Below are positions 10,087 to 51,021 of a stretch of DNA of 64,000 nucleotides, one piece after another. Every line of letters begins with the position of its first letter. Positions within the stretch are counted from its first letter, which is position 1. The position numbers were made by a program, and so were the translations under genes. The notes below the pieces were generated by a model. It was not told the origin of the DNA. It did no database searches and saw only the letters and a list, made by a program, of their open reading frames with translations. The stretch covers positions 1-64,000 of the forward strand of contig JAFWOE010000050.1 of assembly GCA_017509985.1 (NCBI GenBank), written 5' to 3'. Origin of the DNA: Lachnospiraceae bacterium (GTDB lineage: Bacteria > Bacillota > Clostridia > Lachnospirales > Lachnospiraceae).

Positions 10087-10119
10087 CAAAAAAAGCACCA
10101 TTGATATGGTGCTCTTTTT
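10087..10119 (-). terminator. Terminator of the leftward tRNA transcript
   Basis: On the minus strand AGCACCAT-ATCA-ATGGTGCT forms an 8-bp stem followed by seven T residues, directly beyond the 3' end of the tRNA-Met gene. The plus strand also reads into a T run, so it may work in both directions. Confidence 0.85.
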
Positions 10120-10122
10120 CCG

Positions 10123-10196: not shown

Positions 10197-10214
10197 GTAT
10201 TCGCAGTCCTGCGA

Positions 10215-10287
10215 TGGGGCCTACAGGGCTCGAACCTGTGACCCTCTGCTTGTAAGGCAGATGCTCTCCCAGCTGAGCTAAGACCCC
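10215..10287 (-). tRNA. tRNA-Val (TAC)
   Basis: A 73-nt cloverleaf on the minus strand, with acceptor GGGGTCT/AGGCCCC, anticodon stem TCTGC/GCAGA with TAC in the loop, and T loop GGTTCGAGCCC. CCA is not encoded. It is the first gene of a two-tRNA transcript shared with tRNA-Met. Confidence 0.95.
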
Positions 10288-10323
10288 TTTGGTTTAAAAC
10301 GCTAACCTGCAGACCGCTTCGCT

Positions 10324-10352
10324 ATTGTATTATTTAGAGAGAGTTTTGTCAA
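10324..10352 (-). promoter_or_regulatory. Strong sigma-A promoter of the tRNA operon
   Basis: On the minus strand a consensus TTGACA (10347-10352) and TACAAT (10324-10329) are separated by exactly 17 bp, with transcription predicted to start near 10317, about 30 nt before tRNA-Val. Confidence 0.88.
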
Positions 10353-10394
10353 CAGGTTTTTTAACAGACCGGTCAAATCGACCGCCTGCTTCCA

Positions 10395-10422
10395 TTGCCT
10401 TTTTTTTAAATAGTTGTATACT
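10395..10422 (+). promoter_or_regulatory. Promoter of the MATE gene, suggesting a leaderless mRNA
   Basis: TTGCCT (10395-10400) and TATACT (10417-10422) are separated by 16 bp. Transcription would start 7-8 nt after the -10 element, on the ATG at 10430 itself. No Shine-Dalgarno sequence lies before that ATG. Confidence 0.6.
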
Positions 10423-10429
10423 TTTTATT

Positions 10430-15779: not shown

Positions 15780-17087
15780 TTGACTAATTTCCAAATCGCC
15801 ATCATCGGCGTTGTCATCCTGCTGGTGCTTCTGGTGCTGGGTATGAACATCGGTGTTACAATGATGTGCATCGGTTTCTTCGGTACCTGGGTCGTCAGAG
15901 GCTTTATGCCGGCACTGGCTCTGTTTAAGAACATTCCTTTCACGCAGGCGACAACGTATTCGTTTACGGTAATACCGCTGTTCGTCCTGATGGGGAACCT
16001 ATGTTATTATTCCGGCATGTCGGGAGACCTTTATGACTGTGCGCATAAGATCCTCGGCGGATTAAAGGGCGGCCTGGCCATTGCGACAGTCGCAGCCTGC
16101 GCCTGCTTCTCCGCGATCTGCGGATCCACAGCAGCTACCGCGGCAACCATGGGTGTCGTAGCTCTGCCGGAAATGCGTGAACACGGATATGACGACGGCC
16201 TCTCCTGCGGCTCCATTGCCGCCGGCGGTACCCTGGGAATCCTGATCCCGCCGAGTACGGGCTTCATCATTTACGGTATCGTATCCGGCGCTTCGATCGG
16301 CGGGCTTTTCGCGGCCGGTATTCTTCCCGGCATCCTGCTCGCAGTCTGCTACATCGTTGCGATCATGATCACCTGCAGGATCCATCCGGAATACGCACCC
16401 GGAAAGCTTAATTTCACCCTGAAGGAAAAGCTGATCTCCCTGAAAGGCGCGGTTGCGATGGTCGTGATCTTCGTAATCGTTATCGGCGGTATCTTCGGCG
16501 GATGGTTTACGGCAAACGAGGCATCGGCGATCGGTGCTACCGGCGCCCTGTTATACCTGATCGGCAGACGGAAATTCACCTGGAAGATCTTCTTCAGCTG
16601 TCTGAGAGATACCGTGAAGACGTCGGGTATGATTTTCCTTATCCTGATCGGTGCCTACATTTTCGGTTCCTTCCTGACACTGACGCAGCTGCCCAGCGTT
16701 CTGGCGGATTTTGTTACCGGTCTTGACGTCAGCAAATACGTCATTCTGCTGGTCATCATTATTGTTTATGCCGTAATGGGCTGCCTGATGGACTCCCTGG
16801 CGATGGTTATGCTGACCGTTCCGATCTTCCTGCCGATCATGCAGGAACTGGGCTTCAACGATATCTGGTACGGCGTTCTGATGATCATGGTTATGGAAAT
16901 GGGACTGATCACACCGCCTGTCGGCATGAACGTTTATATCGTTGCCGGTGTGGCCAAGGACGTACCGCTGCAGAAGATTTTCCGCGGCGTTGCCCCGATG
17001 GTGCTCGGAATGTTCGTAGCAGTCTTCATCGTCTGTGCATGGCAGGATCTTGCCCTGTATCTGCCCAGAGCATTCGGGTACATTTAA
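15780..17087 (+). CDS. TRAP transporter large permease (DctM)
   Basis: A 435-residue DctM permease with many helices, intact over the family length. It shows the repeated signatures CGSTAATAATMGVVALPEM and GGTLGILIPPSTGFIIYGI in the first half and MEMGLITPPVGMNVYIVAG near the C-terminus. The start is TTG 15780 behind GGGAGG. It would carry out Na+-coupled uptake of an organic acid with the DctP and DctQ encoded downstream. The gene order M-P-Q is unusual, since the first TRAP cluster of this window runs Q-M-P. The two permeases are clearly diverged paralogues rather than a recent duplication. Confidence 0.94.
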   Translation: MTNFQIAIIGVVILLVLLVLGMNIGVTMMCIGFFGTWVVRGFMPALALFKNIPFTQATTYSFTVIPLFVLMGNLCYYSGMSGDLYDCAHKILGGLKGGLAIATVAACACFSAICGSTAATAATMGVVALPEMREHGYDDGLSCGSIAAGGTLGILIPPSTGFIIYGIVSGASIGGLFAAGILPGILLAVCYIVAIMITCRIHPEYAPGKLNFTLKEKLISLKGAVAMVVIFVIVIGGIFGGWFTANEASAIGATGALLYLIGRRKFTWKIFFSCLRDTVKTSGMIFLILIGAYIFGSFLTLTQLPSVLADFVTGLDVSKYVILLVIIIVYAVMGCLMDSLAMVMLTVPIFLPIMQELGFNDIWYGVLMIMVMEMGLITPPVGMNVYIVAGVAKDVPLQKIFRGVAPMVLGMFVAVFIVCAWQDLALYLPRAFGYI

Positions 17088-17162
17088 CGAAACGGATTTA
17101 AAGGGTTTTGCCCTTTGATCATAACTAAAAAACCAATATAAATTCATTTAGGAGGAGACAAA

Positions 17163-18488
17163 ATGAAAAAGATTATTTCCTTAGTTGTTATCGCAGCTAT
17201 GGGCCTGGCTCTCTTCACCGGCTGCGGCGGCAGCAGTGCAGCACCGGCGGCAGAAGCCAAATCTGAAGCAGCAGCTCCGGCGGCAGAAGCTAAATCCGAA
17301 GCTCCTGCAGCAGAAGCATCTTCAGCAGCACCGGCAGCAGAAGCTTCTTCTGCAGCATCCGAAGCAGCAGCTGAGTCTGAAGCTCCGGCGGCAGAAGACT
17401 ACATTGCACCCCCGGACAGCCATGTAGCGCTTGTAGACCAGGATACTTCCAAAGCGGAGTATACTCTCTATGTTGCAAACCATGACGCTACCACCAGCAT
17501 GTGCGAAGCTTACATTGAGACTCTTTGCAACATGATCAACCAGGAGTCCGGCGGACGTATCGCATTCGTTTACAATCCCGGCGGTTCCCTTCTTGGAGCG
17601 ATGGAGACCATCGATGGTGTTAAAGACGGCACAGCAGATATCTGCTGGTCCTGCACCTCTTTCTTCAGCGGACGTTTCCCGGTTTCCGAGTTCATCAACC
17701 TCTGCGGAAACGGATGCACCAGCGCCCGTATGGCAACGGATGTTTTCCAGCAGATGTATGAAGAGATCCCCGAAGTGCAGAATGAATTCAAAGACTGGAA
17801 GATCCTTGCTCTGCATTCCTGCGCTTACGGCCCGGTTTCCACTGTAGGCAAGAAGATCGAGAAGAAAGAAGACTTTGCCGGAATGCAGATCCGTACCGCA
17901 GGTGCGATCCCGACTCAGTATCTGACCGCTCTCGGCGCAAACCCGATGACCGTTCCGACCTCTGATGTTTACGAGTCTGTTGAGAAGGGCGTTATCGACG
18001 GCTTCACCAATGACTGGCACAACATCGACTGCTTCAAACTGTATCAGCCGATCGACTACTGCCTGGATCTGCCGATCAGCTATACTTCCTGCTTCGTTCT
18101 GATGAACAAGGACACCTATGACAGCCTTCCGGATGATCTGAAAGCGATCATCGACAAGTATGCAGGCAACTATGCAGGCGATATGGCCGGCTACTGGTGG
18201 GATTCCTGCAACTACTGGGTTGCTGACAAGATGGAAGCGGAAGGCGTAGAAGTTTACAAACCCACTGATGAGCTCCGTGACTGGGCAACTTCACCCGAAA
18301 TCATTGATGGTATCCATGAGTGGTATGTAAACTATCTGATCAATGATGCCAAGCTTGCCAACGGTCAGGAGATCTATGACAAGTGCATGGAGATCGTAGA
18401 ACAGAACAAGGCAGCTCATGAGAATGACTGGGCTAACAAGTTCAGCTATCTTAACTGGCACTATACACCGGACAACCTTCCGGGATGA
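17163..18488 (+). CDS. TRAP transporter substrate-binding lipoprotein (DctP)
   Basis: A 441-residue receptor with lipoprotein signal MKKIISLVVIAAMGLALFTGC, giving an acylated Cys21. A 55-residue Ala/Glu/Pro/Ser linker follows (units like APAAEAKSEA), then a DctP fold from about residue 95. The family segment FAGMQIRTAGAIPTQYLTALG and the downstream SVEKGVIDGFTND are present. A strong AGGAGG precedes the start. The binding pocket cannot be read well enough to name the ligand. The linker resembles the one in the other DctP in composition but not in detailed sequence. Confidence 0.93.
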   Translation: MKKIISLVVIAAMGLALFTGCGGSSAAPAAEAKSEAAAPAAEAKSEAPAAEASSAAPAAEASSAASEAAAESEAPAAEDYIAPPDSHVALVDQDTSKAEYTLYVANHDATTSMCEAYIETLCNMINQESGGRIAFVYNPGGSLLGAMETIDGVKDGTADICWSCTSFFSGRFPVSEFINLCGNGCTSARMATDVFQQMYEEIPEVQNEFKDWKILALHSCAYGPVSTVGKKIEKKEDFAGMQIRTAGAIPTQYLTALGANPMTVPTSDVYESVEKGVIDGFTNDWHNIDCFKLYQPIDYCLDLPISYTSCFVLMNKDTYDSLPDDLKAIIDKYAGNYAGDMAGYWWDSCNYWVADKMEAEGVEVYKPTDELRDWATSPEIIDGIHEWYVNYLINDAKLANGQEIYDKCMEIVEQNKAAHENDWANKFSYLNWHYTPDNLPG

Positions 18489-19092: not shown

Positions 19093-19190
19093 TCCAAAGA
19101 GCGGACAGAGTTTTGGAACCCCTGCATTGCAGCGGGTCGAAAAACAGATGTCAAACCTCCCGGCAAATTGAATAAACTGTATTTTGCACA

Positions 19191-19222
19191 GGACAGTCGG
19201 ATTTATTCCGGCTGTCCTTTTT
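19191..19222 (+). terminator. Rho-independent terminator after the second TRAP operon
   Basis: GGACAGTCGG-ATTTATT-CCGGCTGTCC is a 10-bp stem with one G-U pair, followed by TTTTTG. It lies about 100 nt after dctQ and before the hyp promoter. Confidence 0.85.
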
Positions 19223-19244
19223 GTATTCAAAAATTATTTGCCCC

Positions 19245-19273
19245 TTGCATTAAACCGCTTTTTAGACGATACT
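19245..19273 (+). promoter_or_regulatory. Candidate promoter of the hyp/hydrogenase operon
   Basis: TTGCAT (19245-19250) and GATACT (19268-19273) are separated by 17 bp, ending 17 nt before the hypF ATG. No other strong promoter is obvious until past 33.3 kb, so the hyp and hydrogenase genes may be one long transcript. Confidence 0.6.
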
Positions 19274-19290
19274 CTTACTGGGAAAAAGAC

Positions 19291-21603
19291 ATGAAAAAAA
19301 TACGGGCAAAAGTCATTATCAAAGGAATCGTACAGGGCGTCGGTTTTCGGCCTTATATTCACCGTGAAGTGGAAGAGGCCGGACTTTTCGGCTGGGTCCG
19401 CAATACCTCCGACGGAGCCGAAATGGAAGCGGAAGGAGAAGAATCCGGTGTTCTTCGCCTGATTGATCATATTCAGAACGATCCGCCCGAACTGGCCTAT
19501 ATCGAAAGCGTCCATTATGAGCTTTTTGATGAGCTGTGCGGATATCAGGGCTTTACCATAGAAAAAAGCCGGACTCTTTCCAGAAGGAACACTTTGATCT
19601 CTCCGGATGTCTGCATCTGTGAGGATTGTCTTTCGGAACTGTTTGATCCAAAGGACCGGCGGTTCCGCTATCCTTTTATCAACTGCACGAACTGCGGTCC
19701 CCGCTTTACTATTATAAAAGACGTACCTTATGACAGGGAGAAGACCACAATGGCCGCATTTCCCATGTGCCCTGAGTGCGCTGCGGAGTACGGAGATATT
19801 ACCAGCAGGCGCTATCACGCCCAGCCGGACTGCTGCGAAGCCTGCGGACCGGGGCTGTCCTTTACGGAGGCGGGAGATACATCCTATACAGACTGTATTG
19901 ATAAAGCCATCCGTGCTCTTGAAAGCGGGAAGATCGTTGCTGTCAAGGGGATCGGGGGCTTTCACCTTGCCTGCAAAACGGAAGAATCCGTCGTAAGGCT
20001 GCTGAGAGAAAGAAAACAGCGCGACGGGCGTCCCTTTGCACTGATGTGCAGAGACATTGAAGCTGCCGGAAAACTGGCATATATTTCCGAAGGCGAAAAA
20101 AAACTTCTGCTGAGCCGGGCGCGGCCGATCGTACTTCTGAAAAAGAAAAAAGAAGCCGTTCCGGAAAGTGTCAGCAGTAATTCGCGTGTCGGGATCATGC
20201 TTCCTTATACACCGATGCATTACCTGCTTTTCGAAAAGGGGCCGGAAGCCCTGGTGATGACGAGCGCGAACCTTTCCGATCTGCCGATCATCTATAAAAA
20301 TGAAGATGCCTTAAAGGATCTTGCCGGGATCGCAGATGCTTTCCTTCTTCACGACCGGGATATCCACACACGGTGTGATGACTCTGTAGTTTTTGAACGC
20401 GGCGGGAAACCTTATTTTGTGAGGAGATCCAGAGGCTACGTCCCGCTTCCCGTTTCACTTCATCTGCCGGCAGAGAAAAGCATTCTCGCCTGTGGGGCGG
20501 AACAGAAGGCAAGCTTTTCTCTTTATTCGGACGGCCATCTCTTTTCAAGTCAGCATATCGGCGATCTGAAAAACGCCGAAACACTGGATTTTTATGAGGA
20601 GCAGATCCGCAATTTTGAGAATCTGTTTGACCGCAGGCCTGAGGTCCTGGCCTGTGACCTGCATCCGGATTATCTTTCCGGCCGTTATGCGGCTGCCCGG
20701 GCAGCAGCGGAAGGCCTGCCCCTTGTACGTGTTCAGCATCATTTCGCACATATGGCTTCATGCATGGCGGACAATGGCCTGACGGAAAAATGCATCGGGA
20801 TCGTCTGGGACGGGACCGGACTGGGAACGGATCGGACGATCTGGGGAGCGGAGTTCCTGTACGGGGATCTTAGCGGTTATGAGCGGCTCGGGAGCATCCG
20901 GCCGATCCGCCTGCCCGGGGGAGATGTCTGCACCAGGGAAAATTTCCGTACGGCGTATTCGCTCTGCGCGGAAGCCGGCTTGCTATTTGACTGCGAGCAT
21001 AAAGACGTCCTGAAAAAGATCCTGCAGGCAGACGTCAACTGTCCGAAGGCTTCGAGTATGGGCAGGCTGTTTGACGGGGTAAGTGCTCTGCTCGGAATCT
21101 GCAGCAGGTCCACGTATGAAGGCGAAGGGGCGGTTCTGCTGGAAGCTGCAGCGGATGACTGGCTTTTCCGGCAGTTTTCGGGTTATAATAGCCCCGGGGA
21201 CCGGATCGAAAAGGAAGGATTTGCCGATCCGGCAGAGAGTTACGAGATCCCGATCCGGAAAGAAGATGTATACCGTTTTGACTGGCGGGAAATGATCCGC
21301 GGGATCTTGGAAGACTTTCAAAACGGTAAAGAAAAGGGTTATATTGCATACCGGTTTATTTATACAATGGCGGTGATGGCTGTCCGGATGTGCCGGATCC
21401 TGAGAGATCTGACCGGGACAGACCGGGCAGTCCTTTCGGGAGGGACCTTCCAGAATATGCTTCTGATGGACCTGCTTCCTAAAATGCTTGAGGCTGAAGG
21501 CTTTTCGGTATATATTCATTCCCGTACAGCCACGAACGATGAAGGCATCAGTGCCGGACAGGCAGCCGCGGTGCTCGGGGGATACAAGGGAGAAATACTT
21601 TGA
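19291..21603 (+). CDS. hypF: Carbamoyltransferase HypF (NiFe hydrogenase maturation)
   Basis: A 770-residue HypF with all family modules in order: acylphosphatase domain (KGIVQGVGFRPYIHREV, residues 12-28), two zinc fingers (CICEDC...CTNCGP and CPECAAEY...CCEACGP), a YrdC-like domain, and a Kae1/carbamoyltransferase-like part (VQHHFAHMASCMADNGL, WDGTGLGTDRTIWGAEF, LSGGTFQNML). It converts carbamoyl phosphate to the thiocarboxamide on HypE that becomes the CN ligands of the NiFe centre. The frame is open upstream, but ATG 19291 gives the canonical N-terminus. Confidence 0.97.
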   Translation: MKKIRAKVIIKGIVQGVGFRPYIHREVEEAGLFGWVRNTSDGAEMEAEGEESGVLRLIDHIQNDPPELAYIESVHYELFDELCGYQGFTIEKSRTLSRRNTLISPDVCICEDCLSELFDPKDRRFRYPFINCTNCGPRFTIIKDVPYDREKTTMAAFPMCPECAAEYGDITSRRYHAQPDCCEACGPGLSFTEAGDTSYTDCIDKAIRALESGKIVAVKGIGGFHLACKTEESVVRLLRERKQRDGRPFALMCRDIEAAGKLAYISEGEKKLLLSRARPIVLLKKKKEAVPESVSSNSRVGIMLPYTPMHYLLFEKGPEALVMTSANLSDLPIIYKNEDALKDLAGIADAFLLHDRDIHTRCDDSVVFERGGKPYFVRRSRGYVPLPVSLHLPAEKSILACGAEQKASFSLYSDGHLFSSQHIGDLKNAETLDFYEEQIRNFENLFDRRPEVLACDLHPDYLSGRYAAARAAAEGLPLVRVQHHFAHMASCMADNGLTEKCIGIVWDGTGLGTDRTIWGAEFLYGDLSGYERLGSIRPIRLPGGDVCTRENFRTAYSLCAEAGLLFDCEHKDVLKKILQADVNCPKASSMGRLFDGVSALLGICSRSTYEGEGAVLLEAAADDWLFRQFSGYNSPGDRIEKEGFADPAESYEIPIRKEDVYRFDWREMIRGILEDFQNGKEKGYIAYRFIYTMAVMAVRMCRILRDLTGTDRAVLSGGTFQNMLLMDLLPKMLEAEGFSVYIHSRTATNDEGISAGQAAAVLGGYKGEIL

Positions 21604-21694
21604 CCGGAAAAGGAAGCATCCGGGACAGACAACCGTTCTTAACACAATAAGCTCGGGCCACAGATAATAATACAGAATACGGAGAATTCGGAAT

Positions 21695-21937
21695 ATGTGT
21701 CTTGCAGTTCCGTTCAAAATAACGGAGATCAACGAAAAAGAAGGAATCGGCGAAAGAAACGGCATCCGCCGCAGCATCCGCCTTGATTTTATAAAAGAGC
21801 CGAAGATCGGGGACTATGTGATTGTGCATGCCGGCTTTGCCATTGAAAGGCTCCCGAAGGAGCAGGCCGAAAATGCCTGTGGGGCAGCGGCAGAAGTGGA
21901 AGAAGAGCTCCGGAAGATCATGGAGGAAATGGCATGA
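21695..21937 (+). CDS. hypC: Hydrogenase assembly chaperone HypC
   Basis: An 80-residue HypC/HupF protein beginning MCLAVPFKI, with the essential Cys2 that binds the Fe(CN)2CO precursor. A central VIVHAGFAIERL segment matches the family. It would carry the Fe fragment between HypD and the hydrogenase large subunit. Its last codons overlap hypD by 4 nt. Confidence 0.96.
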   Translation: MCLAVPFKITEINEKEGIGERNGIRRSIRLDFIKEPKIGDYVIVHAGFAIERLPKEQAENACGAAAEVEEELRKIMEEMA

Positions 21938-23046
21938 CCGACCCTGCAAAATACAAGGAGATGCTTGCGCGGCTTTGCAGCCGAAAGATCCGGATCATGG
22001 AGGTCTGCGGGACCCATACCATGGCCATCGCAAAAGCAGGGATCCGAAATCTTCTGCCCGACAATATCAAACTGATCTCCGGTCCGGGCTGTCCGGTCTG
22101 CGTGACCGACCAGCAGGATATCGACCGTATCCTGGAACTGTCCGGGCTGGAAGACATCATTATCGCGAGTTACGGGGATATGCTCCGTGTGCCGGGATCG
22201 ATCAGAGGCGACAGCCTTCTTGCGCGCAAAGCCAAAGGTGCGCAGGTGGAAGTGGTTTATTCCCCTGTGGACGCAGTTGAACTGGCTCTTCGGAATAAAG
22301 ATAAAAGAGTAGTGTTTATCGGTGTCGGCTTTGAGACGACAGCGCCCGGGACGGCGTCTGCCGTTCTTTATGCCGAAGAAAAGGGAGCAAAGAATTTTTT
22401 CCTACTTTCATTGATGAAAAGGGTGGAACCGTCCCTCCGTGCCCTGATCGCGCGTCCGGATTTTAATATCGACGGTTTCCTGTGCCCGGGCCATGTCGCC
22501 ACCATCACGGGTGCAAATGCTTTCCGGTTCCTTCCGGAAGAGTACGGCCTTCCTGCCGTGGTCAGCGGTTTCGAGGCAGAGGATATCCTTCTTTCAATCT
22601 ATGAGATCACAAGACAGATCGCCCAGGGAGAGCCTGGGATATTCAATGAATATAAACGTGCCGTGACCGATGAAGGAAATGAAGCCGCCATGGAGACCCT
22701 GAACCGAGTTTTTGAGCCGGCAGAGGCAGAATGGAGAGGACTGGGTAGCATAGCGGCAAGCGGTCTGAAACTGCGGCAGGAATATGGAAGGTATGATATT
22801 ATTAATGAATTAACGCCGGAAGAACTGAAAAACGTCCTTGAAAAAGCAAGATTCAACAAAATGAGTACCTCTGAAACAAAAAAGTGCGTGTGCGGAGACG
22901 TTATATGTGGCATAATTAATCCATTAAGGTGTATAATGTTCGGGAAAGTGTGTACACCTGCGAATCCCCTCGGTCCCTGTATGGTCTCATCGGAGGGGAG
23001 CTGTGCCGCCGCCTATAAATACTGCGGCGTCAATCAGATCATATAA
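21934..23046 (+). CDS. hypD: Hydrogenase formation protein HypD
   Basis: A 370-residue HypD of normal length with the family motifs VCGTHTMAIAKAGIR, GPGCPVCVT and GFETTAPGTA. The C-terminal cysteines for the [4Fe-4S] cluster are around CVCGDVICG and ANPLGPCMVSSEGSCAAAY. It holds the Fe atom while the CN and CO ligands are attached, together with HypC and HypE. It overlaps hypC by 4 nt. Confidence 0.97.
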   Translation: MTDPAKYKEMLARLCSRKIRIMEVCGTHTMAIAKAGIRNLLPDNIKLISGPGCPVCVTDQQDIDRILELSGLEDIIIASYGDMLRVPGSIRGDSLLARKAKGAQVEVVYSPVDAVELALRNKDKRVVFIGVGFETTAPGTASAVLYAEEKGAKNFFLLSLMKRVEPSLRALIARPDFNIDGFLCPGHVATITGANAFRFLPEEYGLPAVVSGFEAEDILLSIYEITRQIAQGEPGIFNEYKRAVTDEGNEAAMETLNRVFEPAEAEWRGLGSIAASGLKLRQEYGRYDIINELTPEELKNVLEKARFNKMSTSETKKCVCGDVICGIINPLRCIMFGKVCTPANPLGPCMVSSEGSCAAAYKYCGVNQII

Positions 23047-23099
23047 AGATTCAGCGCAGGACAGAAAAACTGCGCTTTGGGGGATAGAACAGCAGATTT

Positions 23100-24098
23100 A
23101 TGAGCGAGATCATCACGCTTGATCATGGCAGCGGGGGAGAAAAAACCTCCGGGCTGGTTAAAGAGCTTGTCCTGAAATATCTGGGCAACTGCATTCTGGA
23201 CCGGCTCGAGGACGCGGCACTGATCCGTGCCGGCGACCAGATCGTTTTTTCTACCGACAGCTTTGTCATCGATCCGCTTTTCTTCCCGGGTGGAAATATA
23301 GGAAAACTATGCGTTTGCGGAACGGCAAACGATGTATGCATGCGCGGAGGAAAGCCGTATGCCTTAAGCCTCGCACTGATCCTGGAGGAAGGCTTTCCGG
23401 TAGCGGACCTTGAAAAGATCCTGGCTTCCATCGCGGAAACCGCCCGGAAAGCCGGTGTTTTGATCGTGACGGGAGACACCAAGGTCGTCGAAAAGGGAAA
23501 AGGCGACGGGATCTACATCAACACGGCGGGGATCGGACTGCCGGTTTTGAAGAACCTCGGCACGGAATACATCCGTGAAGGGGATGCAGTCCTGGTCTCC
23601 GGAACCGTAGGCGATCACGGTGCGGCTGTCATGCTTGCCCGGAACGAAGGCCTTCTGGCCGGAGAGATCCGTTCGGACTGCGGCCTTTTGACCGGCCTGG
23701 CCGAAGAACTTCAGAAACTCGGAGATGCTGTCCGTATCATGCGCGATCCTACCCGCGGAGGCCTGGCCACCGTTATGGCGGAATTTGCAGAAGATACGCC
23801 TTTCCTCTTCGAACTCGAGGAGGATAAGATCCCGGTCCGGGAGGACGTAAGGAGCGCCTGTGATATACTGGGCCTGGATCCGTTATACTGCGCCTGTGAA
23901 GGACGGCTTGTCGCTGTAGTGGAAGGCAGCCGTGCCGAAGAAGCGGCAGAACTTTTAAGATCAAGAGAGGAAGGCCGGGATGCGGCTGTGATCGGCCGCG
24001 TCGTGCAGGGGGCTTTTGGCAGAGTCGTTTTAAAGACCGCTTACTCGTCCAGAGTGCTGACAAAACTTTCGGGAATGCAGCTCCCGAGAATATGCTGA
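23100..24098 (+). CDS. hypE: Carbamoyl dehydratase HypE
   Basis: A 332-residue HypE of the PurM/ThiL-like ATPase fold, with DHGSGGEKT at the N-terminus and the conserved C-terminal PRIC ending in the Cys that receives the carbamoyl group. It dehydrates the thiocarboxamide to thiocyanate and passes CN to iron on HypC-HypD. It lies 53 nt after hypD and before the hydrogenase structural genes. Confidence 0.97.
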   Translation: MSEIITLDHGSGGEKTSGLVKELVLKYLGNCILDRLEDAALIRAGDQIVFSTDSFVIDPLFFPGGNIGKLCVCGTANDVCMRGGKPYALSLALILEEGFPVADLEKILASIAETARKAGVLIVTGDTKVVEKGKGDGIYINTAGIGLPVLKNLGTEYIREGDAVLVSGTVGDHGAAVMLARNEGLLAGEIRSDCGLLTGLAEELQKLGDAVRIMRDPTRGGLATVMAEFAEDTPFLFELEEDKIPVREDVRSACDILGLDPLYCACEGRLVAVVEGSRAEEAAELLRSREEGRDAAVIGRVVQGAFGRVVLKTAYSSRVLTKLSGMQLPRIC

Positions 24099-24144
24099 GA
24101 CAAATTCCTTTCACGGATGAGATATATATAGTAGGAGGAATCTT

Positions 24145-24534
24145 ATGCAGGAATACAACAAGATCACGATTACAAAAGAGGAGATCGTCCCCCTTGCGGA
24201 AAAAATGCGCGCAGAGGGGGTAACTCTGGCCATGATCCATGCGTTCAAGGAGGATGACGGAACGGCTAATGTTTCCTACGAGTACCAGACGGCAAAAGGC
24301 GTGGATTCCTATACCGTGACGGGAGAGAATGTTCTCCCGAGCATTTCCGGGATCTACGATCTTGCTGCGGAATGGCCGGAGCGCGAGATCATGGAGCTGA
24401 TGGATATCACCTTCGAAGGGGTGGATACTTCGGAAAGACTATTCCTTCCGGAATCCATGCTCAGCGAACAGGGCCAGATCCTGATCACATCCATGGATGA
24501 TCTTATCGAGAAGAAGAAAGGAGATAAGGAATGA
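24145..24534 (+). CDS. NuoC-like 30-kDa-type subunit of group 4 hydrogenase (MbhK/EchD-like)
   Basis: A 129-residue hydrophilic protein resembling the NuoC/30-kDa family and the equivalent subunits of membrane hydrogenases, with a C-terminal DITFEGVDTSERLFLPESM close to that family. It has no cysteines and binds no cluster; it would stabilise the peripheral arm next to the large subunit. It has its own AGGAGG site and overlaps the large-subunit gene by 4 nt. Similarity is modest at the N-terminus, and the assignment leans on position. Confidence 0.8.
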   Translation: MQEYNKITITKEEIVPLAEKMRAEGVTLAMIHAFKEDDGTANVSYEYQTAKGVDSYTVTGENVLPSISGIYDLAAEWPEREIMELMDITFEGVDTSERLFLPESMLSEQGQILITSMDDLIEKKKGDKE

Positions 24535-25622
24535 GTTATATCGTACCGATAGGTCCCTATCATCCAGCTCTCGAGGAACCAGTGCACGCCCGGCTTTATG
24601 TTGAGGGCGAGGTCATTAAGGAAGCCAAAGTCTTTATCGGCTACAACCACAGGGGAATCGAAAAGCTTGCTACGCAGAAGAACATCATCCAGACCCTCGT
24701 CATGGTTGAAAGAGTGTGCGGTATCTGCTCTCATTCACATGCCTGGACGTATGCCATGGCTGTGGAAGGCTGTGCGGGAATAGAGGTCCCGAAAAGAGGA
24801 GAGTACATCAGGGTAATCGTCGGAGAACTGGAAAGGCTTCATTCGCATTATCTGTGGCTCGGAATCGCACTGCATCTCATCGGGCATGACAGCCTGTTCA
24901 TGCATACCTGGGACGACCGTGAAGCCATCATGGATATCCTGGAGGAGATCAGCGGAAACCGGGTAAACTACGGAATGATCACCATCGGCGGCGCCAGAAG
25001 GGATATCAGCGACGAGACCCGAAGGAACACCCTCGCGATGCTGGACAAGATCGAAGAATCCATCCTCCGCATCAGGGACATGCTCCTTACGGATAAGACC
25101 GTTGCCCTCCGTACCCAGGGAGTCGGAGTCCTCACGACGGAAGACGCCATCCGGATCGGAGCCAACGGACCTCATGCCAGGGCTTCGAATGTGCCGATCG
25201 ACGTGCGGAAGGATTCTCCGTACAGCTGTTATGAGGATTTCGAGTTTGAGAAGGCCGTTTTCCCGACCTGCGATGTATTCTCGAGAGTCGTCATCCGTGT
25301 CCTGGAATCGGTTGAGAGCATCAAGATCGTCCGTCAGGCGCTGGAGAATCTTCCGGCAGGCAAGATCAACAACGACGGCGCTGTTCCCAAGCTTCCGAAG
25401 GTTCCCGTTGCGGAATACATGGTACGTTATGAAGCACCGCGCGGCCAGCTGACCTACAAAGTCGTTACCGACGGAAAAGTAGGCAATAAGCGGGTCAGCA
25501 TTCACGTGCCTACGTTCCGGAATGCGCCGACGATCCCGACCATGCTCCGCGAGAATTCGGTGGCTGATGCAGGACTGATCATTGCAAGCATCGATCCCTG
25601 CTTCTCCTGCATGGACAGATAA
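24531..25622 (+). CDS. NiFe hydrogenase large subunit, group 4 (MbhL/EchE-like)
   Basis: A 363-residue catalytic subunit of the group 4, complex-I-related hydrogenases. The two CxxC motifs that bind Ni-Fe are RVCGICSHSH near residues 62-71 and DPCFSCMDR at the C-terminus. The protein stops on that Arg, with no cleavable tail; many large subunits need an endopeptidase to remove one, and no such gene is here. The NuoD-like core is normal (GELERLHSHYLWLG). It would reduce protons to H2 with electrons from ferredoxin through the small and polyferredoxin subunits. Confidence 0.94.
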   Translation: MSYIVPIGPYHPALEEPVHARLYVEGEVIKEAKVFIGYNHRGIEKLATQKNIIQTLVMVERVCGICSHSHAWTYAMAVEGCAGIEVPKRGEYIRVIVGELERLHSHYLWLGIALHLIGHDSLFMHTWDDREAIMDILEEISGNRVNYGMITIGGARRDISDETRRNTLAMLDKIEESILRIRDMLLTDKTVALRTQGVGVLTTEDAIRIGANGPHARASNVPIDVRKDSPYSCYEDFEFEKAVFPTCDVFSRVVIRVLESVESIKIVRQALENLPAGKINNDGAVPKLPKVPVAEYMVRYEAPRGQLTYKVVTDGKVGNKRVSIHVPTFRNAPTIPTMLRENSVADAGLIIASIDPCFSCMDR

Positions 25623-36600: not shown

Positions 36601-36858
36601 GATCAGATCGTGAAAGACTCTGTTAAAGCATCAGGAAATTACAGTTAATATGCGGGATTCGTCTGAGCATAGCCTTGTGCTGCTGACAGGTTGAAATCGA
36701 AAAGGAAATCAAATATTATTAAAGAAGCGACAGCTTCCAGTTTTTATGCAGCCGATGTTCTGATCCCTTCCCAAAGGCATATTTTCGAAACAGGACGGGT
36801 CTTTTGTTCAGACATCCGGATCGATGCGGAAGAAATCGAAGAAGGAGGGCTTTTCAAA

Positions 36859-37845
36859 ATGATGACACGCAAAGACAATTTGATGGCGATCTTTAATCAC
36901 CAGTCGCACGATCATATTGGAAGTATGATGGATATGGTCCAGGTCGGCGGGGACGCCGAGGCTTTTGAAAACGGCCCTGCGGGAGGTACCGGCGGCCCGG
37001 ACGGATTCGGCCTGGTCTGGAGACGAACAACATCTGGGTTCGGCGGCGGAACACCGGCTCCGAACCAGAATCTGATCCCCGATATCTGTGACTGGAAAGA
37101 GGTCGTTCATTTCCCCGATATTGCGAATTACGACTGGGAAGGCCAGGCCAGGGCCCAGCTGACCGGCATCGACCGCAATGAAAAAGTGATCGATTACTGC
37201 TGCTGGAACGGACCGTTTTTGCGCCTGGTCGATATGATGGGCATGGTAGAGGGGCTTATGGCTTTTGCCAGCGAGCCGGAAGCCTGCGAGGAATTTCTGA
37301 ACGCTTATACGGATTACCGCATCAGCACCCTTCCTTATATTGTCAAATACTTTGAACCGGACGTCATCACACTTTTCGATGACTTCGCTCATGAGAGAGG
37401 CCTGTTCATTTCACCGAATACCTATAACGAACTGATCGTTCCGCAGCATAAACGCTGGACCGAGGCGGTCCGTTCCTACGGCATTATCCCGGATATGCAT
37501 GTCTGCGGAAAACCCGAAGCGGTCGCTCCCGGCTTTATCGACGAAGGCTTTGAAGCGTGGCAGATCGTGCAGCCGGAAAATGATATTGTCAGCCTCCAGA
37601 AAGAGACTGCCGACAAACTGGCACTCATCGGCTGCTGGGACCTCCAGGGCAAATGGATCACGCCCGGAGTTACGCCCACCGAGGAAGAACTGCGCGCCAA
37701 GATCCGCGAAGCGATTGACAATTACGGCCCCGGAGGAAATGTTGCGATATTCTGCATGATCATGAACCCTCAGGTGGATTTCGCTGAGTCCTCGGCAATC
37801 ATGCACGACGAGATCGTGAAATACGGAACAGGCTATTACTGCTGA
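36859..37845 (+). CDS. Uroporphyrinogen decarboxylase (URO-D) family methyltransferase-like protein
   Basis: A 328-residue TIM-barrel protein of the URO-D/MtaA group, used in corrinoid-dependent methyl transfer. The zinc-site region HVCGK is at about residues 215-219, and a C-terminal Cys ends the protein (GYYC), as in the His-x-Cys...Cys zinc site of methylcobamide:CoM methyltransferases. Other landmarks are LFDDFAHERGLFISP and IGCWDLQGKW. It lacks the Arg-rich N-terminus of true HemE and no haem genes are near. GAAGGAGG is 9 nt before ATG 36859. A CobW-type GTPase and a His-rich protein follow, which suggests metal delivery to it. The methyl donor is unknown. Confidence 0.8.
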   Translation: MMTRKDNLMAIFNHQSHDHIGSMMDMVQVGGDAEAFENGPAGGTGGPDGFGLVWRRTTSGFGGGTPAPNQNLIPDICDWKEVVHFPDIANYDWEGQARAQLTGIDRNEKVIDYCCWNGPFLRLVDMMGMVEGLMAFASEPEACEEFLNAYTDYRISTLPYIVKYFEPDVITLFDDFAHERGLFISPNTYNELIVPQHKRWTEAVRSYGIIPDMHVCGKPEAVAPGFIDEGFEAWQIVQPENDIVSLQKETADKLALIGCWDLQGKWITPGVTPTEEELRAKIREAIDNYGPGGNVAIFCMIMNPQVDFAESSAIMHDEIVKYGTGYYC

Positions 37846-43096: not shown

Positions 43097-45223
43097 ATGA
43101 TAAAAGAACCTTTCTCATTAAAAGAAAAGATCAAAGCAAAAATACCGGGTGAAGATACCGGTATTTTGCTTAAAGCGAGCTTTTGCGATATCTGCTCTCC
43201 CGCGCCTTCCTGCGGGGTGAACTGTTTCGTAAAAGACGGAAAGCTGCTGAAAGCGGAAGGCATACAGGGCCATCCGGCAGGGAACGGCGTCCTGTGTACC
43301 AAGGGTCTTGCGCAGCGCCAGTATGTTTACCGGAAAGACCGGCTTAAGGTACCGTTGAAGCGTATCGGAGCACGGGGTGAAGGCCGCTTTGAGGCAGTCT
43401 CCTGGGACGAGGCGCTTGACGAGATCGCCGAAAGGCTCAATGCGGTCAAAAATGAATACGGTGCTTCTTCTGCCGCGTTCTTTTCGGGTTACAATAAATG
43501 GTACAGGCCGTTTCTGCAGCGGCTTTGCTATTCTTTCGGATCGGTGAACTACGGATCCGAGTCTTCCACCTGCTTCCTTGCGACGGTCATGGCGTGGAAA
43601 TCCATGACCGGATGCGAAACGACCATGCCCGACCGGAAGAATGCCGGGACATTTCTGGGCTGGGGCTTTAATCCTTATTATTCCAGAAACATGGGACCGG
43701 CTCCGGAAGGCGGAAGAAAAGGAAATGAAAAGGTGATCATTATCGATCCGAGAGAAATGCCGGCAGTTCGTCTGGAAGCGGACCTCTTTCTGCAGATCCG
43801 GCCCGGAACCGACGGAGCCCTGGCCAATGCCCTGGCAAGGGAACTGATCCTTAGGGATAAGATCGATCACGATTATATAGAAAAACACGTTTACGGTTTT
43901 GAAGAGTACCGGGCATATGTTATGGATTTCACGCCCGAGAAAGCCGAAGCGATCACGGATGTTCCGGCAGAAAAGATCCGGGAAGCCGCGGCAGTCATCG
44001 GCGGCAACCTGCCTCTGGCGATCAGCCACTCCAGTTCGACGATCGTACACCATAAGAACGGTTTTCAGAATCAGAGAGCGATCTATGCTCTGAGCGCGAT
44101 CACCGGTTCTTTTGACCAAAAAGGCGGGAACATCCCGTCTCCGGATACGTATGCGCATACCAGGGCCGGCTTCGCGACGAACGTCGAACGATTTGAACTG
44201 GAAAACTACCCCGGAGAGGGTCCGCAGCGTGTGGGAGCAGGGCAGTATCCGCTCTGGAATGAACTGATCCCGGAGATGCAGGCCAACGCATTGGCGGACC
44301 AGATCCTTTCCGGCGAGCCGTATCCGATACGCGCGGTCATGACGCACGGCATGAATTACCGGATGTTTCAGGCGGATATGCGGCTGAAAAAAGCCCTGGA
44401 AGAACTGGATTTCTTTGCGGTCGCGGACCTCTTTATGACGGATACCGCAAAAATGGCGGACATCATCCTCCCCTGTGCGTCATCTCTGGAAAGAAGCGAG
44501 CTGAAAGTTTACCCGGGGCCGAAGGCCTGGTATACGCATCCGGTGATCGATCCGGTCGGGGATGTGCGTTCCGACACGGATATCATTATTGAACTGGCAA
44601 AGAGGCTGGATATAAAGGATGAGCTGCTGAGATCCGGTTATGATGCCTGCTTGAAGTATATTTTCGAAGGAACCGGTCTGGATGTGGACCGGATCAGAGC
44701 GGCAGAAGGAGAACTGGTACCGCTGGAAGAAACGAAGACCGTCCGTCCGGGCGAATTTATCTTCAAAACTCCGACCGGGAAATTTGAGCTGTACTCCAAA
44801 GTCATCGAAAAGTATGATGGTTTCTGTCCGCTGCCACAATACAGTGACGGCAGCAGCGAGGCGGATCCGGAAGAGTATCCGCTGCAGCTTGTGGCGGGAG
44901 GCAGGCTGCCTTCCTCCATGCATTCCAGACTGAATGACGTGCCCTGGCTACGGTCGCTGCGGCCGCAGCCGATGGCGGACCTTCATCCGGAAGATCTGGA
45001 TGAGCGCGGTATAACAGCGGGAGAAAGGATCCGGATACGTACCACAGAAGGAGAGATAACCGCAGCGGCAAACCCGTCGTCTGCTGTTAAAAGAGGCCTG
45101 GTGTTCATGACCAACGGATATCCGGAAGCCGATGTGAATTCGATCGTTCCGCACGGACATAACGACCCTTATACCGGATATCCCGGGTTCCGAAATGTGC
45201 GCTGTACGGTGGAAAAACTATGA
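43097..45223 (+). CDS. Cytoplasmic molybdopterin oxidoreductase (DMSO reductase family)
   Basis: A 708-residue enzyme with an N-terminal [4Fe-4S] site (CDICSPAPSCGVNC...GVLCTKG, residues 30-70), a molybdopterin core with GWGFNPYYSRN, IIIDPREMP and LADQILSGEPYPIRAVMTHG, and a C-terminal molybdopterin-dinucleotide domain (TNGYPEADVNSIVPHGHNDP). A Cys in SESSTCF (about residue 156) is the likely Mo/W ligand. There is no Tat signal, so it is cytosolic. It is coupled to the four-cluster ferredoxin gene by a 4-nt overlap. It resembles the family of thiosulfate/polysulfide reductases and hydroxylation enzymes only broadly; the substrate is unknown. Confidence 0.9.
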   Translation: MIKEPFSLKEKIKAKIPGEDTGILLKASFCDICSPAPSCGVNCFVKDGKLLKAEGIQGHPAGNGVLCTKGLAQRQYVYRKDRLKVPLKRIGARGEGRFEAVSWDEALDEIAERLNAVKNEYGASSAAFFSGYNKWYRPFLQRLCYSFGSVNYGSESSTCFLATVMAWKSMTGCETTMPDRKNAGTFLGWGFNPYYSRNMGPAPEGGRKGNEKVIIIDPREMPAVRLEADLFLQIRPGTDGALANALARELILRDKIDHDYIEKHVYGFEEYRAYVMDFTPEKAEAITDVPAEKIREAAAVIGGNLPLAISHSSSTIVHHKNGFQNQRAIYALSAITGSFDQKGGNIPSPDTYAHTRAGFATNVERFELENYPGEGPQRVGAGQYPLWNELIPEMQANALADQILSGEPYPIRAVMTHGMNYRMFQADMRLKKALEELDFFAVADLFMTDTAKMADIILPCASSLERSELKVYPGPKAWYTHPVIDPVGDVRSDTDIIIELAKRLDIKDELLRSGYDACLKYIFEGTGLDVDRIRAAEGELVPLEETKTVRPGEFIFKTPTGKFELYSKVIEKYDGFCPLPQYSDGSSEADPEEYPLQLVAGGRLPSSMHSRLNDVPWLRSLRPQPMADLHPEDLDERGITAGERIRIRTTEGEITAAANPSSAVKRGLVFMTNGYPEADVNSIVPHGHNDPYTGYPGFRNVRCTVEKL
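43136..43169 (+). promoter_or_regulatory. Strong hairpin inside the start of the molybdoenzyme gene
   Basis: Codons 14-24 contain AAAATACCGG and CCGGTATTTT separated by 9 nt, a 10-bp stem that extends by two more pairs past a bulge, with a T run in the 3' arm. It lies 40 nt after the start codon and could act as an attenuator or translational pause, or be chance. Confidence 0.4.
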
Positions 45224-45660
45224 GTATAAGAATACTGTTTGACGAATCTTTATGCACGGCCTGCGGCGCCTGCGCCATAGCCTGTATGGATCAGAACGAC
45301 ATTGATACGGAAGGCGGCCAGAGGCCTTACCGGAGAGTTACGAAAACCGAGATCGGGCGAATACGCTGCATTTCATCCGCATGTATGCACTGTGAGGAAC
45401 CTGCCTGTGCTTCAGCCTGTGCGGCAGGCTGCATTTACAGGGACGAAAAAAGCGGGCTGGTACTGTATGATAATTCGGATTGTGCCGGCTGCCATGCCTG
45501 TGAAGCAGCCTGTCCTTATGACGCGGTCTCTTTTAGGATGGATGTTTTTGGCTGTGAGAAAATGGAAAAATGTGACGGCTGTTATGCGCGGGTTTTTTCG
45601 GGCATGAAGCCCTCCTGTGTACAGAACTGCCCGACAGGAGCGCTTAAGGTCAGGACGTGA
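45220..45660 (+). CDS. Four-cluster ferredoxin subunit (DmsB/HycB-like)
   Basis: A 146-residue protein with four [4Fe-4S] motifs: CTACGACAIAC, CMHCEEPACASAC, CAGCHACEAACP and CDGCYARVFSG with CVQNCP. This is the usual electron-transfer partner of DMSO-reductase-family enzymes. No membrane anchor gene follows, so the complex is soluble and takes electrons from, or gives them to, a cytosolic carrier. Its last 11 nt overlap the end of the convergent GH25 gene; no terminator separates the two. Confidence 0.92.
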   Translation: MSIRILFDESLCTACGACAIACMDQNDIDTEGGQRPYRRVTKTEIGRIRCISSACMHCEEPACASACAAGCIYRDEKSGLVLYDNSDCAGCHACEAACPYDAVSFRMDVFGCEKMEKCDGCYARVFSGMKPSCVQNCPTGALKVRT

Positions 45661-47480: not shown

Positions 47481-47495
47481 AGGGAGGTTTATTGA

Positions 47496-49805
47496 TTGAA
47501 AGAATTCGATGAAGAAAAGAGGCTTGAGCTGGCGGTCTACGGAAAGGGCGGGATCGGGAAGTCCACGATCAGCGCGAACCTTTCCGCAGCGATGGCTTTG
47601 AACGGAAAGAGGGTCCTTCAGATCGGCTGCGATCCGAAGCATGATTCGACGCGCCTTCTGCTTTACGGTCAGAGGATCCCGACAGTTCTGGATCATCTGA
47701 GAGATATCCCGGAAGAGCAGGCACAGGTTTCTGAAATCCTGCACGAGGGATTTTGCGGAGTCGGCTGCATCGAAGCCGGCGGGCCGAAGCCCGGAGTCGG
47801 CTGCGCGGGACGGGGGATCATTTCGGCTTTTGAGTTCCTTTCCAAAAATAAAATCAAGAAAAACTATGACGCTGTGATCTATGACGTGCTCGGAGACGTT
47901 GTCTGCGGCGGCTTTGCCGTGCCGGTCCGCCGGGAGTATGCCAATACCGTGGTGTTAGTGACCAGCGGCGAGTTTATGGCCATTTATGCCGCGAACAACA
48001 TCCTTCACGGTATCCGGAACTTTGACGGGGATCAGCATCAAAGGGTGGCCGGGATCGTTTACAACGCCAGAAATCTGGCAGGGGAAAAAGAGCGCGTCGA
48101 ACGCTTTGCAAAAGCGGTAAAGCTGCCGATCCTTGCCTGCATTCCGAGAAGCGAAGCATTTGCAGAAGCAGAAGAGAAAAACATCCCTTTATTTGAGCTG
48201 GAAGGATATGAGAAAGAAAAGCAGATATTTAATGAGCTGGCCGAAAAGCTGACAGAAGGCAGAGAGCTTTTTCCTGCCTGTCCGCTGGATGATGAAAAAC
48301 TGGAAGAAGCGGTCCTGGGCGAAAAAAGATACGCAGCAGGATGCAGGGTTCCGGAAGATAAGGCAGAAACGGATGCCGGAATCGCGGCAGCGGGATTGCC
48401 GTATTTCAAAGAAGAGAGCGGTTCTGTTTTGGAAAACGGGTCGGAAGATCCGCACTCCTGCAGAACAGAGAATGCAGCGGAAAACGGAAATACAGATACA
48501 GCAGCTGCCGAAAAACTGTCCGTGCGCCGCATGCCCCTGTATGGCTGCGCTTTCAACGGTGCGGCGGTGACTGCAGTCTTCCTGACCGACGCAATCGTGA
48601 TCGCACATTCCCCGAATTCCTGCGCGTTCTTTGCCTGGCAGACGATCACCTCGGCAGGCCGGAAGGGCCTGTTCAACCGGGGAATCCTGCTTCCCTCGGC
48701 GATCAGTCCGCGGTTTGCCTGCACAGAGATCACACGGACCGAAGCCGTTTACGGCGGAACAGAAAAGCTTCGCGAAGCGGTCGCCCGGGCCGTAGCGCAA
48801 AAGCCCGGAGCCGTCATCGTGATCAGCTCCTGTGTCAGCGGGATCATCGGGGACGACCTGCTTTCGGTGGAAGATCTTTCGACGGAAGAAGTACCGGTGA
48901 TCGCAGTTCCGGCGGACGGCGATATTGCGGGTGATTACATGAAAGGCATTCAGATGTGTCTGCATGCGCTGGCAAAACACCTGATCCGCACGGATATAAA
49001 AGAGAAGACGAAATCCGTCAATCTGATCGGGGAGGTAAGCCTTTCCACCAACCTGGAGACCAGTTACCGGATCTTAAAAGATCTGCTAAAGCGGCTGGGG
49101 ATTGCAGTCAACTGCCGCTTCTTAGGCGGGGCTGCAGTTTCCGATGTGAAGGGGTTTATGAAGGCGCCGTTAAACATACTTGCTTCTGAAAACGCCGATA
49201 ATCTTGCATTAAAACAGTGGCTGACTGAAGAGTACGGCTGCACGTTTTTCGACATGGCGCTTCCGACGGGCTTTGAGGAAACCACCCGCTTTACACGAAA
49301 GATCGCAGACTTCTTTGGCTGCGCGGATAAAGTGCCTGCGATCCTTCAAGAGGAAGAAGAAAAGTATAAAGAAAGCATCGAAAGACTGAAACCGGTACTT
49401 TTTGGAAAACGCCTGCTCATGACCACGATCAGCACAGGCCTCGACTGGCTCTTTTCTGCCGCAGCCGATGCCGGAATGAAAGTTGTCTGGGTCGGCGTGG
49501 CCGATTATTTGCATCAGGGGCTGGCCGTAAGCAGGAATCCGGAGATCTTAAACGTTTCGGAATATGTTTATGATCTTGTAACGGCGGAAGAAAAAATACG
49601 GGAACTGAAACCGGATATCGTCGTATCCAATTACCCTTCCGCCTTTTCACAGGGCGATTACGTACTGGATTTCATGCCCATGACCGAGACACAGGGCTTT
49701 TCTTCGGGCATTTATGCGCTGGAGCGCTGGGCAGGGGAGTTTGAACACAGGAGAAAGGGGGACTGGACGAATGACCGCAAGCTGTACCAGAAGTATTTCT
49801 CCTGA
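47496..49805 (+). CDS. Nitrogenase-like fusion: NifH-type Fe protein joined to NifD-type component
   Basis: A 769-residue protein. Residues 1-262 are NifH/BchL-like: P-loop GKGGIGKST (16-24), [11 protein letters not shown], and both [4Fe-4S] ligands, Cys103 in GVGCAGRG and Cys137 in [10 protein letters not shown]. Residues 265-345 are a low-complexity linker. Residues 346-769 are a nitrogenase component 1-type domain with three cluster cysteines, YGCAFNG (351), HSPNSC (376) and [11 protein letters not shown] (446), matching NifD Cys62, 88 and 154. TTG 47496 follows AGGGAGG. Fe protein and catalytic subunit are separate genes in known nitrogenases and relatives. ATP-driven electron transfer to an unknown substrate is inferred. 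No nifB or other cofactor genes are nearby. Confidence 0.92.
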
Positions 49806-51021
49806 CGCGATCACCGGCATGATCTTCGCAATGGAAGGCATGCAGGAAACCATCGTCCTTTTGAACGGACCGATGGGCTGCCGGTTTTATCACAGCAGCA
49901 CATCCGGCTTCCTTATGCGGCGCCCCCTTCTGTATCTTCCTGCAGGAAAAGGAAAAGAGCGGGTCCCTGTGGATTATAACTATTTAAACGACTGGTTTTT
50001 CCGCCAGGATCGGGTCCCCTGCACGTATCTTGACGGGTACGACTATGTCTACGGGACCGGGGAGAAGGTGGCTGAAGCACTTGCCTTTATCCGGGAACAT
50101 GTCGATTTTAAAATACTCGCCGTGGTGAACTCTCCCGGAGCGGCGCTGATCGGGGACGATCTGTACGGGATCGCAAAGAGAGCGATGCCCGACAGACCGA
50201 TCGTTTATATGGAATCCCCGGGCTATTCGGTCACGTTTGAGGAAGGCTACAGTCTGGCGGCTCTGGAGATGCTGAAGATTCTCCTGCCGGATAAGAAAGA
50301 AGCAAAAGACAAAGAATCCGAACGCCGCAGGCCTGCGATCAACCTGCTCGGCATGTCGATCTGGCACCGCTACTGCGAGGGGGACGTGCGCGAACTGAAA
50401 AGGCTGTTTGAGCTGTGCGGGATTGATGTGAACGCAGTACTGTGCGCGGACTGTTCGATCAGGGAACTGACCGATATCCCGAAGGCGGATCTCAACGTGG
50501 TCGTTTATCCGAAGGCCGGGCTGGAATCTGCGAAATATCTGGAAGAACGGTACGGTCAGCCTTATTATGTCTGCGATCCCCTGCCGGTCGGATTTTCTTC
50601 CACGGAGAAGGTTTTTTCCGAGATCTGTACCCTGCTCGGCACTTCCGAGGGCGCCTTTATGGAGCAAAGCGAACGGGCCCGGGCACTGGCATGGAATAAG
50701 ATCAATGGAATCTTCCAGATGTACGGAAAGCCAAAAGGTGTGACTTTTCATGTTGCAGCGTCGGAATCGCTTGCAAAAGCTTATGGAATCTTCCTGACGG
50801 ATTATCTGGGTATGGAGCCGGCGCCTTTTGATGTGGCAGAGCTTTTGTTTTCCGATGCGAACCGGATCTCGGAGCGGGCTCTGATGCCGGATGAATTCTG
50901 CGGGATCGAAATCAGTTTCCCGGGAATGGGCTACACGGATCTGACCGTTAAGACACACATGGGGATCGAAGGGACACTGTTTTTGATCGAACAGGTGTTA
51001 AACGGCATCATGTCCAAATAA
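49771..51021 (+). CDS. Nitrogenase-like component 1 beta-type subunit (NifK/NifE-like)
   Basis: A 416-residue protein of the nitrogenase component 1 family and partner of the preceding fusion. It keeps GPMGCRFYH (Cys37), but the other cluster positions are changed: the third Cys site reads [14 protein letters not shown]. Three cysteines from the fusion and one from here could hold one [4Fe-4S] cluster, as in dark-operative protochlorophyllide reductase-type enzymes. The C-terminus has FPGMGYTDL and [12 protein letters not shown] 49771 follows AGAAAGGGG and overlaps the fusion gene by 35 nt, so the two proteins are probably made in equal amounts. The substrate is unknown. Confidence 0.88.

Follow-up and report, generated by a model that had tools for sequence, protein, structure and literature searches.

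A NifH–NifD fusion with a NifK-like partner in a Lachnospiraceae genome belongs to an old and widespread family of nitrogenase-like proteins

What kind of enzyme is encoded where a nitrogenase-type Fe protein and a NifD-type catalytic domain share one reading frame, and is such a frame real? The question was raised by a 64,000-nucleotide stretch of a Lachnospiraceae bacterium genome (GenBank assembly GCA_017509985.1, contig JAFWOE010000050.1, positions 1 to 64,000), hereafter the window, in which a NifH–NifD fusion gene (HD) is overlapped by the gene of a NifK-like partner (K). To our knowledge, characterised nitrogenases and nitrogenase-like enzymes all have a separately encoded Fe protein. 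The fusion proved to be real, and its architecture, within a known superfamily, is old, widespread and almost unnoticed. What the HD-K pair does is less certain, and we give roughly even weight to the reading that it is an ATP-driven tetrapyrrole reductase resembling DPOR and COR, whose Fe protein is permanently tethered.

The gene pair, its relatives and its phylogeny

The fusion gene (47496..49805, on the plus strand, as are all features of the pair) was a single open reading frame (ORF) of 769 amino acids (aa), uninterrupted by stops, with a TTG start codon and a ribosome-binding site, GGGAGG, read directly from the sequence ahead of it (47482..47487). Pfam placed Fer4_NifH (PF00142, E 1e-90) at residues 12–272 and Oxidored_nitro (PF00148, E 9e-67) at residues 351–722, both in this one protein. 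Behind the NifH-type Fe protein domain (residues 12–272; 47529..48311) come a flexible linker of about 72 aa (about residues 273–344; 48312..48527) and the NifD-type catalytic domain (residues 345–769; 48528..49802), which belongs to the fused D clade described below. The K gene (49771..51021, 416 aa, ATG start; PF00148, Oxidored_nitro, E 9e-49) began 35 nt inside the 3′ end of the HD gene, and an overlap of exactly 35 nt recurred in 34 loci. The original prediction had described an intact Fe protein with its P-loop and both cluster cysteines, a NifD-type domain with three P-cluster-type cysteines and an overlapping NifK-like gene with one; the P-loop GKGGIGKS, C103 and C137 in H, C351, C376 and C446 in D, and C37 in K were all found. 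The linker that it had reported was also present, although shorter than the 80 residues given. The H–D fusion in the window is confirmed as real and far beyond chance, and we consider the architecture of the HD-K system very likely to be as described here.

Two separate genes in close relatives would have pointed to an assembly error at the H–D junction, as the original prediction had recognized. The fusion was found as a single frame in three of six other genomes of the genus, two of which also carried a second fusion type, 40–42% identical; these fused relatives rule out an error at the junction. An initial scan of genome contigs with a single sequence gave no matches, and candidate long ORFs from the window's order (G380, G203, and G368) were rejected as separate NifH genes, one of them part of a MarBHDK set. 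A wider scan, which took one genome per species and an alignment of D domains as query, yielded 240 relatives, from which 78 loci were retained, about 55 of them with H and D in one frame and K behind. Carriers included metagenome-assembled genomes (MAGs) of rumen and gut Lachnospiraceae and Oscillospiraceae, a Sporobacter MAG, the cultured rumen acetogen Acetitomaculum ruminis DSM 5522 (L093, 9056–12605), Labilibaculum filiforme, the sole representative of Bacteroidota, and archaea mostly named as Methanomassiliicoccales-type. In the order to which one of these archaea belongs, 120 genomes were sampled and at least 67 had a full-length fusion, many of them in several copies. Far from being peculiar to this locus, the fusion spans bacteria and archaea as an old family.

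Three loci (L088, L099, and L108), all in draft genomes, were broken by frameshifts or stops, as would be expected of an assembly or annotation artefact or of a decaying gene. Against such an explanation stand 67 intact fusions found in Clostridia, one Bacteroidota and archaea, in independent genomes that include the named strains A. ruminis and L. filiforme, as well as invariant ligands and concordant trees, and its probability is negligible. An archaeal HD gene (L183, about 9543–11690) had an in-frame amber codon (TAG) at residue 280, within the linker, and several further archaeal HD genes contained one TAG. This archaeal order uses TAG for pyrrolysine, and read-through or fission are the alternatives for the codon in the L183 linker.

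In a tree of H domains (61 rows), the fused H were all united in a single clade (94/99) with a long stem branch, split into archaeal (95/90) and bacterial (97/93) halves. It was apart from NifH, AnfH, MarH, CfbC, BchL, and BchX, and also from the separate nitrogenase-like H proteins of other clostridia. A joint tree of D and K (93 rows, quick method) gave a fused D clade (support 98) and a fused K clade (100), both divided between bacteria and archaea in the same way as H and both outside the Nif, Anf, Mar, Bch, and Cfb groups; the Bch branches were long in the trees and their exact placement is unsure. Neither tree nested the fusion in a functionally known clade, the other outcome that would have spoken against the original prediction. 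With H and D in one chain and H, D, and K each monophyletic, the family constitutes a new clade, for which one old fusion event appears to be the simplest reading. A locus with D and K but no H (L163, D at 16182–17507) was nested within the archaeal half of the fused D clade, which suggests that H was lost later or split off.

The family has been noticed before in passing. A ‘fused nifH/nifE’ of Ca. Methanomassiliicoccus intestinalis, from the same archaeal order as fusion carriers, figures as a landmark in a table on replication origins (PMC4153887, 2014), in a paper whose main text contains no analysis of its sequence, clade or function; it is very probably a member of the fused HD family. 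This table entry was the only prior notice in the literature searched, which mostly excluded subscription papers, so that an unseen report is possible.

Cluster ligands, predicted structure and relation to known systems

The Pfam matches well above cut-off and the Fe-protein cluster ligands Cys103 (47802..47804) and Cys137 (47904..47906), conserved in 67/67 fusions, place the fusion in the nitrogenase superfamily. The same invariance (67/67) was found for Cys351 (48546..48548), Cys376 (48621..48623), and Cys446 (48831..48833), the equivalents of NifD Cys62, Cys88, and Cys154. In K, Cys37 (49879..49881), within a GPMGC motif, was present in 75 of 76 K proteins and is proposed as the fourth ligand of a [4Fe-4S] cluster between D and K. 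Its counterparts in the alignment were NifK Cys95 and the one cysteine of BchZ; the BchB row had no cysteine in this column and an Asp as the following residue. An equivalent of NifK Cys70 was absent from fused K, as it was from BchB and BchZ, and with one cysteine in K the pair falls short of the six of a P-cluster (three in D and three in K). Equivalents of α-Cys275 and α-His442, which bind the iron–molybdenum cofactor (FeMo-co), were replaced in every fused D shown in the alignment, where Cys275 was retained by NifE, Anf, and Mar. DPOR and COR hold one [4Fe-4S] cluster per D/K pair (PMC7242693). Because the 3 + 1 cysteines are invariant and the cofactor ligands are absent, neither a P-cluster nor a FeMo-type cofactor is expected, and one [4Fe-4S] cluster per D/K pair is predicted, which strengthens what the original prediction had proposed from the cysteine pattern of this one locus. 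The curated models for NifH (305 of 394 bits) and NifD (97 of 654) were not reached. The missing FeMo-co ligands, the too few cysteines in K and these low scores led us to reject an identity as an N2-fixing nitrogenase (Nif/Vnf/Anf).

The AlphaFold2 model of K was confident, with a predicted local distance difference test (pLDDT) of 87.9, and its top Foldseek match by query-normalised template-modelling (TM) score was BchB of DPOR (8vqj_D, 0.76), followed among solved structures by a MarK chain. The model of the fusion had two confident domains (pTM 0.60) and a pLDDT <50 at residues 277–348, so that the linker is predicted to be disordered; across the family the linker measured 24–195 aa (median 42), including archaeal linkers of 24–36 aa. 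The H domain matched Fe proteins with a target-normalised TM of about 0.9, and it dominated the search with the whole fusion model, in which the top 50 matches were all Fe proteins.

DPOR (BchLNB/ChlLNB) consists of an Fe protein and a D/K heterotetramer with one [4Fe-4S] cluster and no FeMo-type cofactor, as predicted for the fusion. The resemblance extends to the H motif GCDPKHDST, which among the references was common to fused H and BchL alone, and to the fold of K, nearest to BchB by TM. BchL is nevertheless a separate protein, the fused clades were apart from BchL, BchN, and BchB, and no photosynthesis genes occurred with the fusion. Fused K has Cys37 where the fourth ligand of BchB is Asp, the DPOR D/K cluster being given as 1Asp-3Cys (in a title cited by PMC11423573). 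COR (BchXYZ) is similar to the fusion in having three cysteines in its D-type and one in its K-type subunit, the latter aligned with that of fused K, but BchX is separate and the fused proteins were outside the BchX, BchY, and BchZ clades. CfbCD, the Ni-sirohydrochlorin a,c-diamide reductase, is likewise a tetrapyrrole reductase of methanogens without a FeMo-type cofactor; its D is a homodimer without K, whereas the fusion has a K gene, and it forms a separate clade. The window protein did not reach the CfbD model (31.6 of 268 bits). A true CfbD was above cut-off in five of six archaeal fusion genomes searched, which rules out for most of them that the fusion replaces CfbCD.

The MarBHDK and IsrBHDK systems are also nitrogenase-like HDK sets of anaerobes. 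They differ in having a radical S-adenosylmethionine (SAM) partner, and no radical SAM gene lies beside the window pair. In MarDK, which requires the NifB-like MarB, a P-cluster is accompanied by an [Fe8S9C] cluster bound through Cys270 and His429 (PMC12552129); equivalents of these two ligands are absent from fused D. In the accounts of Mar (PMC12552129) and Isr (PMC11423573), the Fe protein is separate and fused forms are not mentioned. Model scores, cluster ligands and the trees together exclude membership of Nif, Mar, DPOR, COR, and Cfb.

Gene neighbourhoods and the probable substrate

In archaea the neighbourhoods strongly favour a role with tetrapyrroles or corrinoids. Three archaeal loci (L175–L177) had an operon in the order periplasmic binding protein (PBP), FecCD, ATPase, CbiZ, ChlI, ChlD, HD, and K, with CobN adjoining. 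Among 20 archaeal fusion loci, CobN was found in six, ChlI in four and ChlD in five; all three were absent from 20 control regions of the same archaeal order. CobN was encoded by 61/67 archaeal genomes with HD vs. 7/53 without (Fisher 5e-19), and lay ≤12 kb from HD in 23 of 81 cases vs. 3.8 expected, in counts that ignore phylogeny; bile-salt hydrolase, chosen as a negative control for co-occurrence, was encoded too seldom (9/120) to be of use. A precedent is HmuS, a CobN-family haem de-chelatase, in that CobN-type proteins act on imported tetrapyrroles in gut anaerobes (PMC12583661); in the passages of that account consulted, no nitrogenase-like partner of HmuS was reported, and the role of the CobN-type chelatases of methanogens was described as unclear.

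In bacteria the neighbours favour such a role weakly. CbiG followed K after 26 bp in L067, CbiA/BtuR adjoined the pair in L116, and a haem-receptor-like TonB protein, two PBPs and FecCD were near it in L. filiforme (L107). Fusions of type 2 (L043, 3328–13000; L044, L113, and L114) terminated a conserved operon of a SAM methyltransferase, a solute-binding protein, two permeases and two ATPases (Opp/Nik-type BCDE), HD, and K, after which L113 had CbiD and a haem/siderophore-type transporter. CbiD was present in 21 of 22 bacterial carriers vs. 75 of 195 genomes of the window's order (p 1e-7); taxa are mixed in this comparison, several carriers being outside that order. In two distant bacteria a xylose-isomerase-like TIM-barrel protein was encoded upstream of the fusion (L105, 845–1882; L107, 2638–3636). 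The original prediction had found no clue to the substrate among the neighbours. This holds for the window, where a YfbR-like hydrolase gene (HD hydrolase) lies 16 bp upstream of the pair in a position not conserved in relatives, and was on that ground rejected as an operon partner; it does not hold for the relatives, with their corrinoid, tetrapyrrole and chelatase genes.

The archaeal members probably act on a tetrapyrrole, and for the family as a whole a corrinoid or other tetrapyrrole has, in our estimate, an even chance of being the substrate class. Besides the limits of the co-occurrence and CbiD counts, several points weigh against such a substrate. Conserved neighbours were missing from the window pair and from most clostridial pairs of type 1, and CobN was found in one of 32 bacterial carrier genomes searched, where it was partial; because of both, the archaeal association may not extend to the window. 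CysK directly after K in L070 and its presence after K in L184 would suit sulfur chemistry. The tetrapyrrole substrate is a more tentative suggestion than the stoichiometry, electron path and alternation proposed below, most of all for the stand-alone type-1 pair of the window. With somewhat less than even weight, we hold that the family is an uncharacterised cross-domain clade of tetrapyrrole (corrinoid) reductases with a tethered Fe protein, one Fe-protein dimer serving two catalytic halves. On this reading it is widespread among Clostridia of the gut and rumen and among the methanogens of a single order, and in these methanogens would work with CobN-ChlI-ChlD chelatases and CbiZ on imported corrinoids.

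Other functions were weighed against a tetrapyrrole reductase. The genes after K also bear on a reductase of sulfur compounds akin to MarHDK or IsrHDK, which would cleave C–S bonds and pass sulfide or thiols to assimilation: CysK followed K by 29 bp in L070, CysK/CysE/CysRS followed it in the archaeal loci L178 and L184, and MarK was the second-best solved match for K. Fused D lacks equivalents of the MarDK ligands Cys270 and His429, none of the fused loci examined had a NifB-like gene beside it, and the fusion is apart from Mar in the trees, so that this function is unlikely. Slightly less improbable, but still doubtful, is a metal or metallophore reductase that frees or assimilates imported Ni, Co or Fe chelates. 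The type-2 operons, with their SAM methyltransferase and Opp/Nik-type ATP-binding cassette transporter, and the PBP/FecCD-type transporters beside other members would fit it. FecCD and Opp/Nik transporters, however, also move corrinoids, haem and peptides; CbiZ, ChlI/ChlD, CobN, CbiG, and CbiD indicate a macrocycle; and nitrogenase-like chemistry is expensive for plain metal reduction.

A substitute for a reductive step of anaerobic B12 synthesis, such as that of CbiJ (cobalt-precorrin-6A reductase), would be in keeping with the CbiD encoded by most carriers and with the reduction of a comparable ring double bond by DPOR (PMC7242693). CbiJ was, however, present in all 18 bacterial carriers tested, which largely refutes its replacement in bacteria, and in three of five archaeal ones. 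The archaeal genomes without CbiJ (G417 and G435) leave a small opening, and the explanation is very improbable.

Proposed mechanism and further nitrogenase-like loci

A tethered mechanism similar to that of DPOR and COR appears well supported by the sequence comparisons. HD-K would be an oxygen-sensitive, ATP-driven reductase of the nitrogenase superfamily, in which two HD and two K chains may form an (HD-K)2 core with a [4Fe-4S] cluster at each D/K interface, held by three cysteines of D and one of K, and no FeMo-type cofactor. Paired, the tethered H domains would make up a functional Fe protein, with a [4Fe-4S] cluster of its own shared between them. This dimer would dock, hand over one electron to the D/K cluster in each ATP cycle, let go and dock again, which it could do without leaving the complex because the long disordered linker permits it. 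The electrons would reach an organic substrate at the D/K interface, most likely the macrocycle of a corrinoid or other tetrapyrrole. Since the Fe protein is a dimer and H, D, and K are present 1:1:1, each (HD-K)2 would have one Fe-protein dimer, half the usual docking capacity; the halves would then alternate, or H domains would pair between complexes.

Docking and release of the Fe protein set the catalytic rhythm of nitrogenases. A natural, old and common tethered form permits testing of whether the Fe protein needs to dissociate and whether the halves alternate, and tethered HD offers a ready single-chain template for nitrogenase engineering. Should a corrinoid or other pigment prove to be the substrate, rumen microbes and methane producers would have a hidden pathway for salvaging pigments, and a role would emerge for the CobN-type chelatases of methanogens.

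Separate nitrogenase-like HDK sets were also encountered in L052, L053, and L057, with a PBP/FecCD/ATPase transporter directly after HDK in L052 and L057. In other Lachnospirales (L054, 5295–16974; L056, 1–13608), two tandem separate sets lay amid hydrogenase-maturation genes. The interleaved genes encoded HypF, HypD, HypE, and a TM1266 regulator in L054, and HypF/D/E-like proteins, HydE, and HydF in L056 (NCBIfam above cut-off for those tested), an unexplained link between nitrogenase-like proteins and hydrogenases. The window's own genome contained a second nitrogenase-like set with a separate H (L047, 4796–12131), made up of a NifB-like radical SAM protein, an NMT1/SsuABC-like transporter, D, K, and H. 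Within the window, genes for a molybdopterin oxidoreductase and its 4Fe-4S partner lay just upstream of the pair (43097–45660), with no subfamily model at or above cut-off. Further upstream, genes recognized by eye encoded a URO-D/MtaA-like protein with a corrinoid methyltransferase-type fold (36691–37845) and HypF-, HypD-, and HypE-like proteins together with a group-4 hydrogenase-like large subunit (19168–25622).

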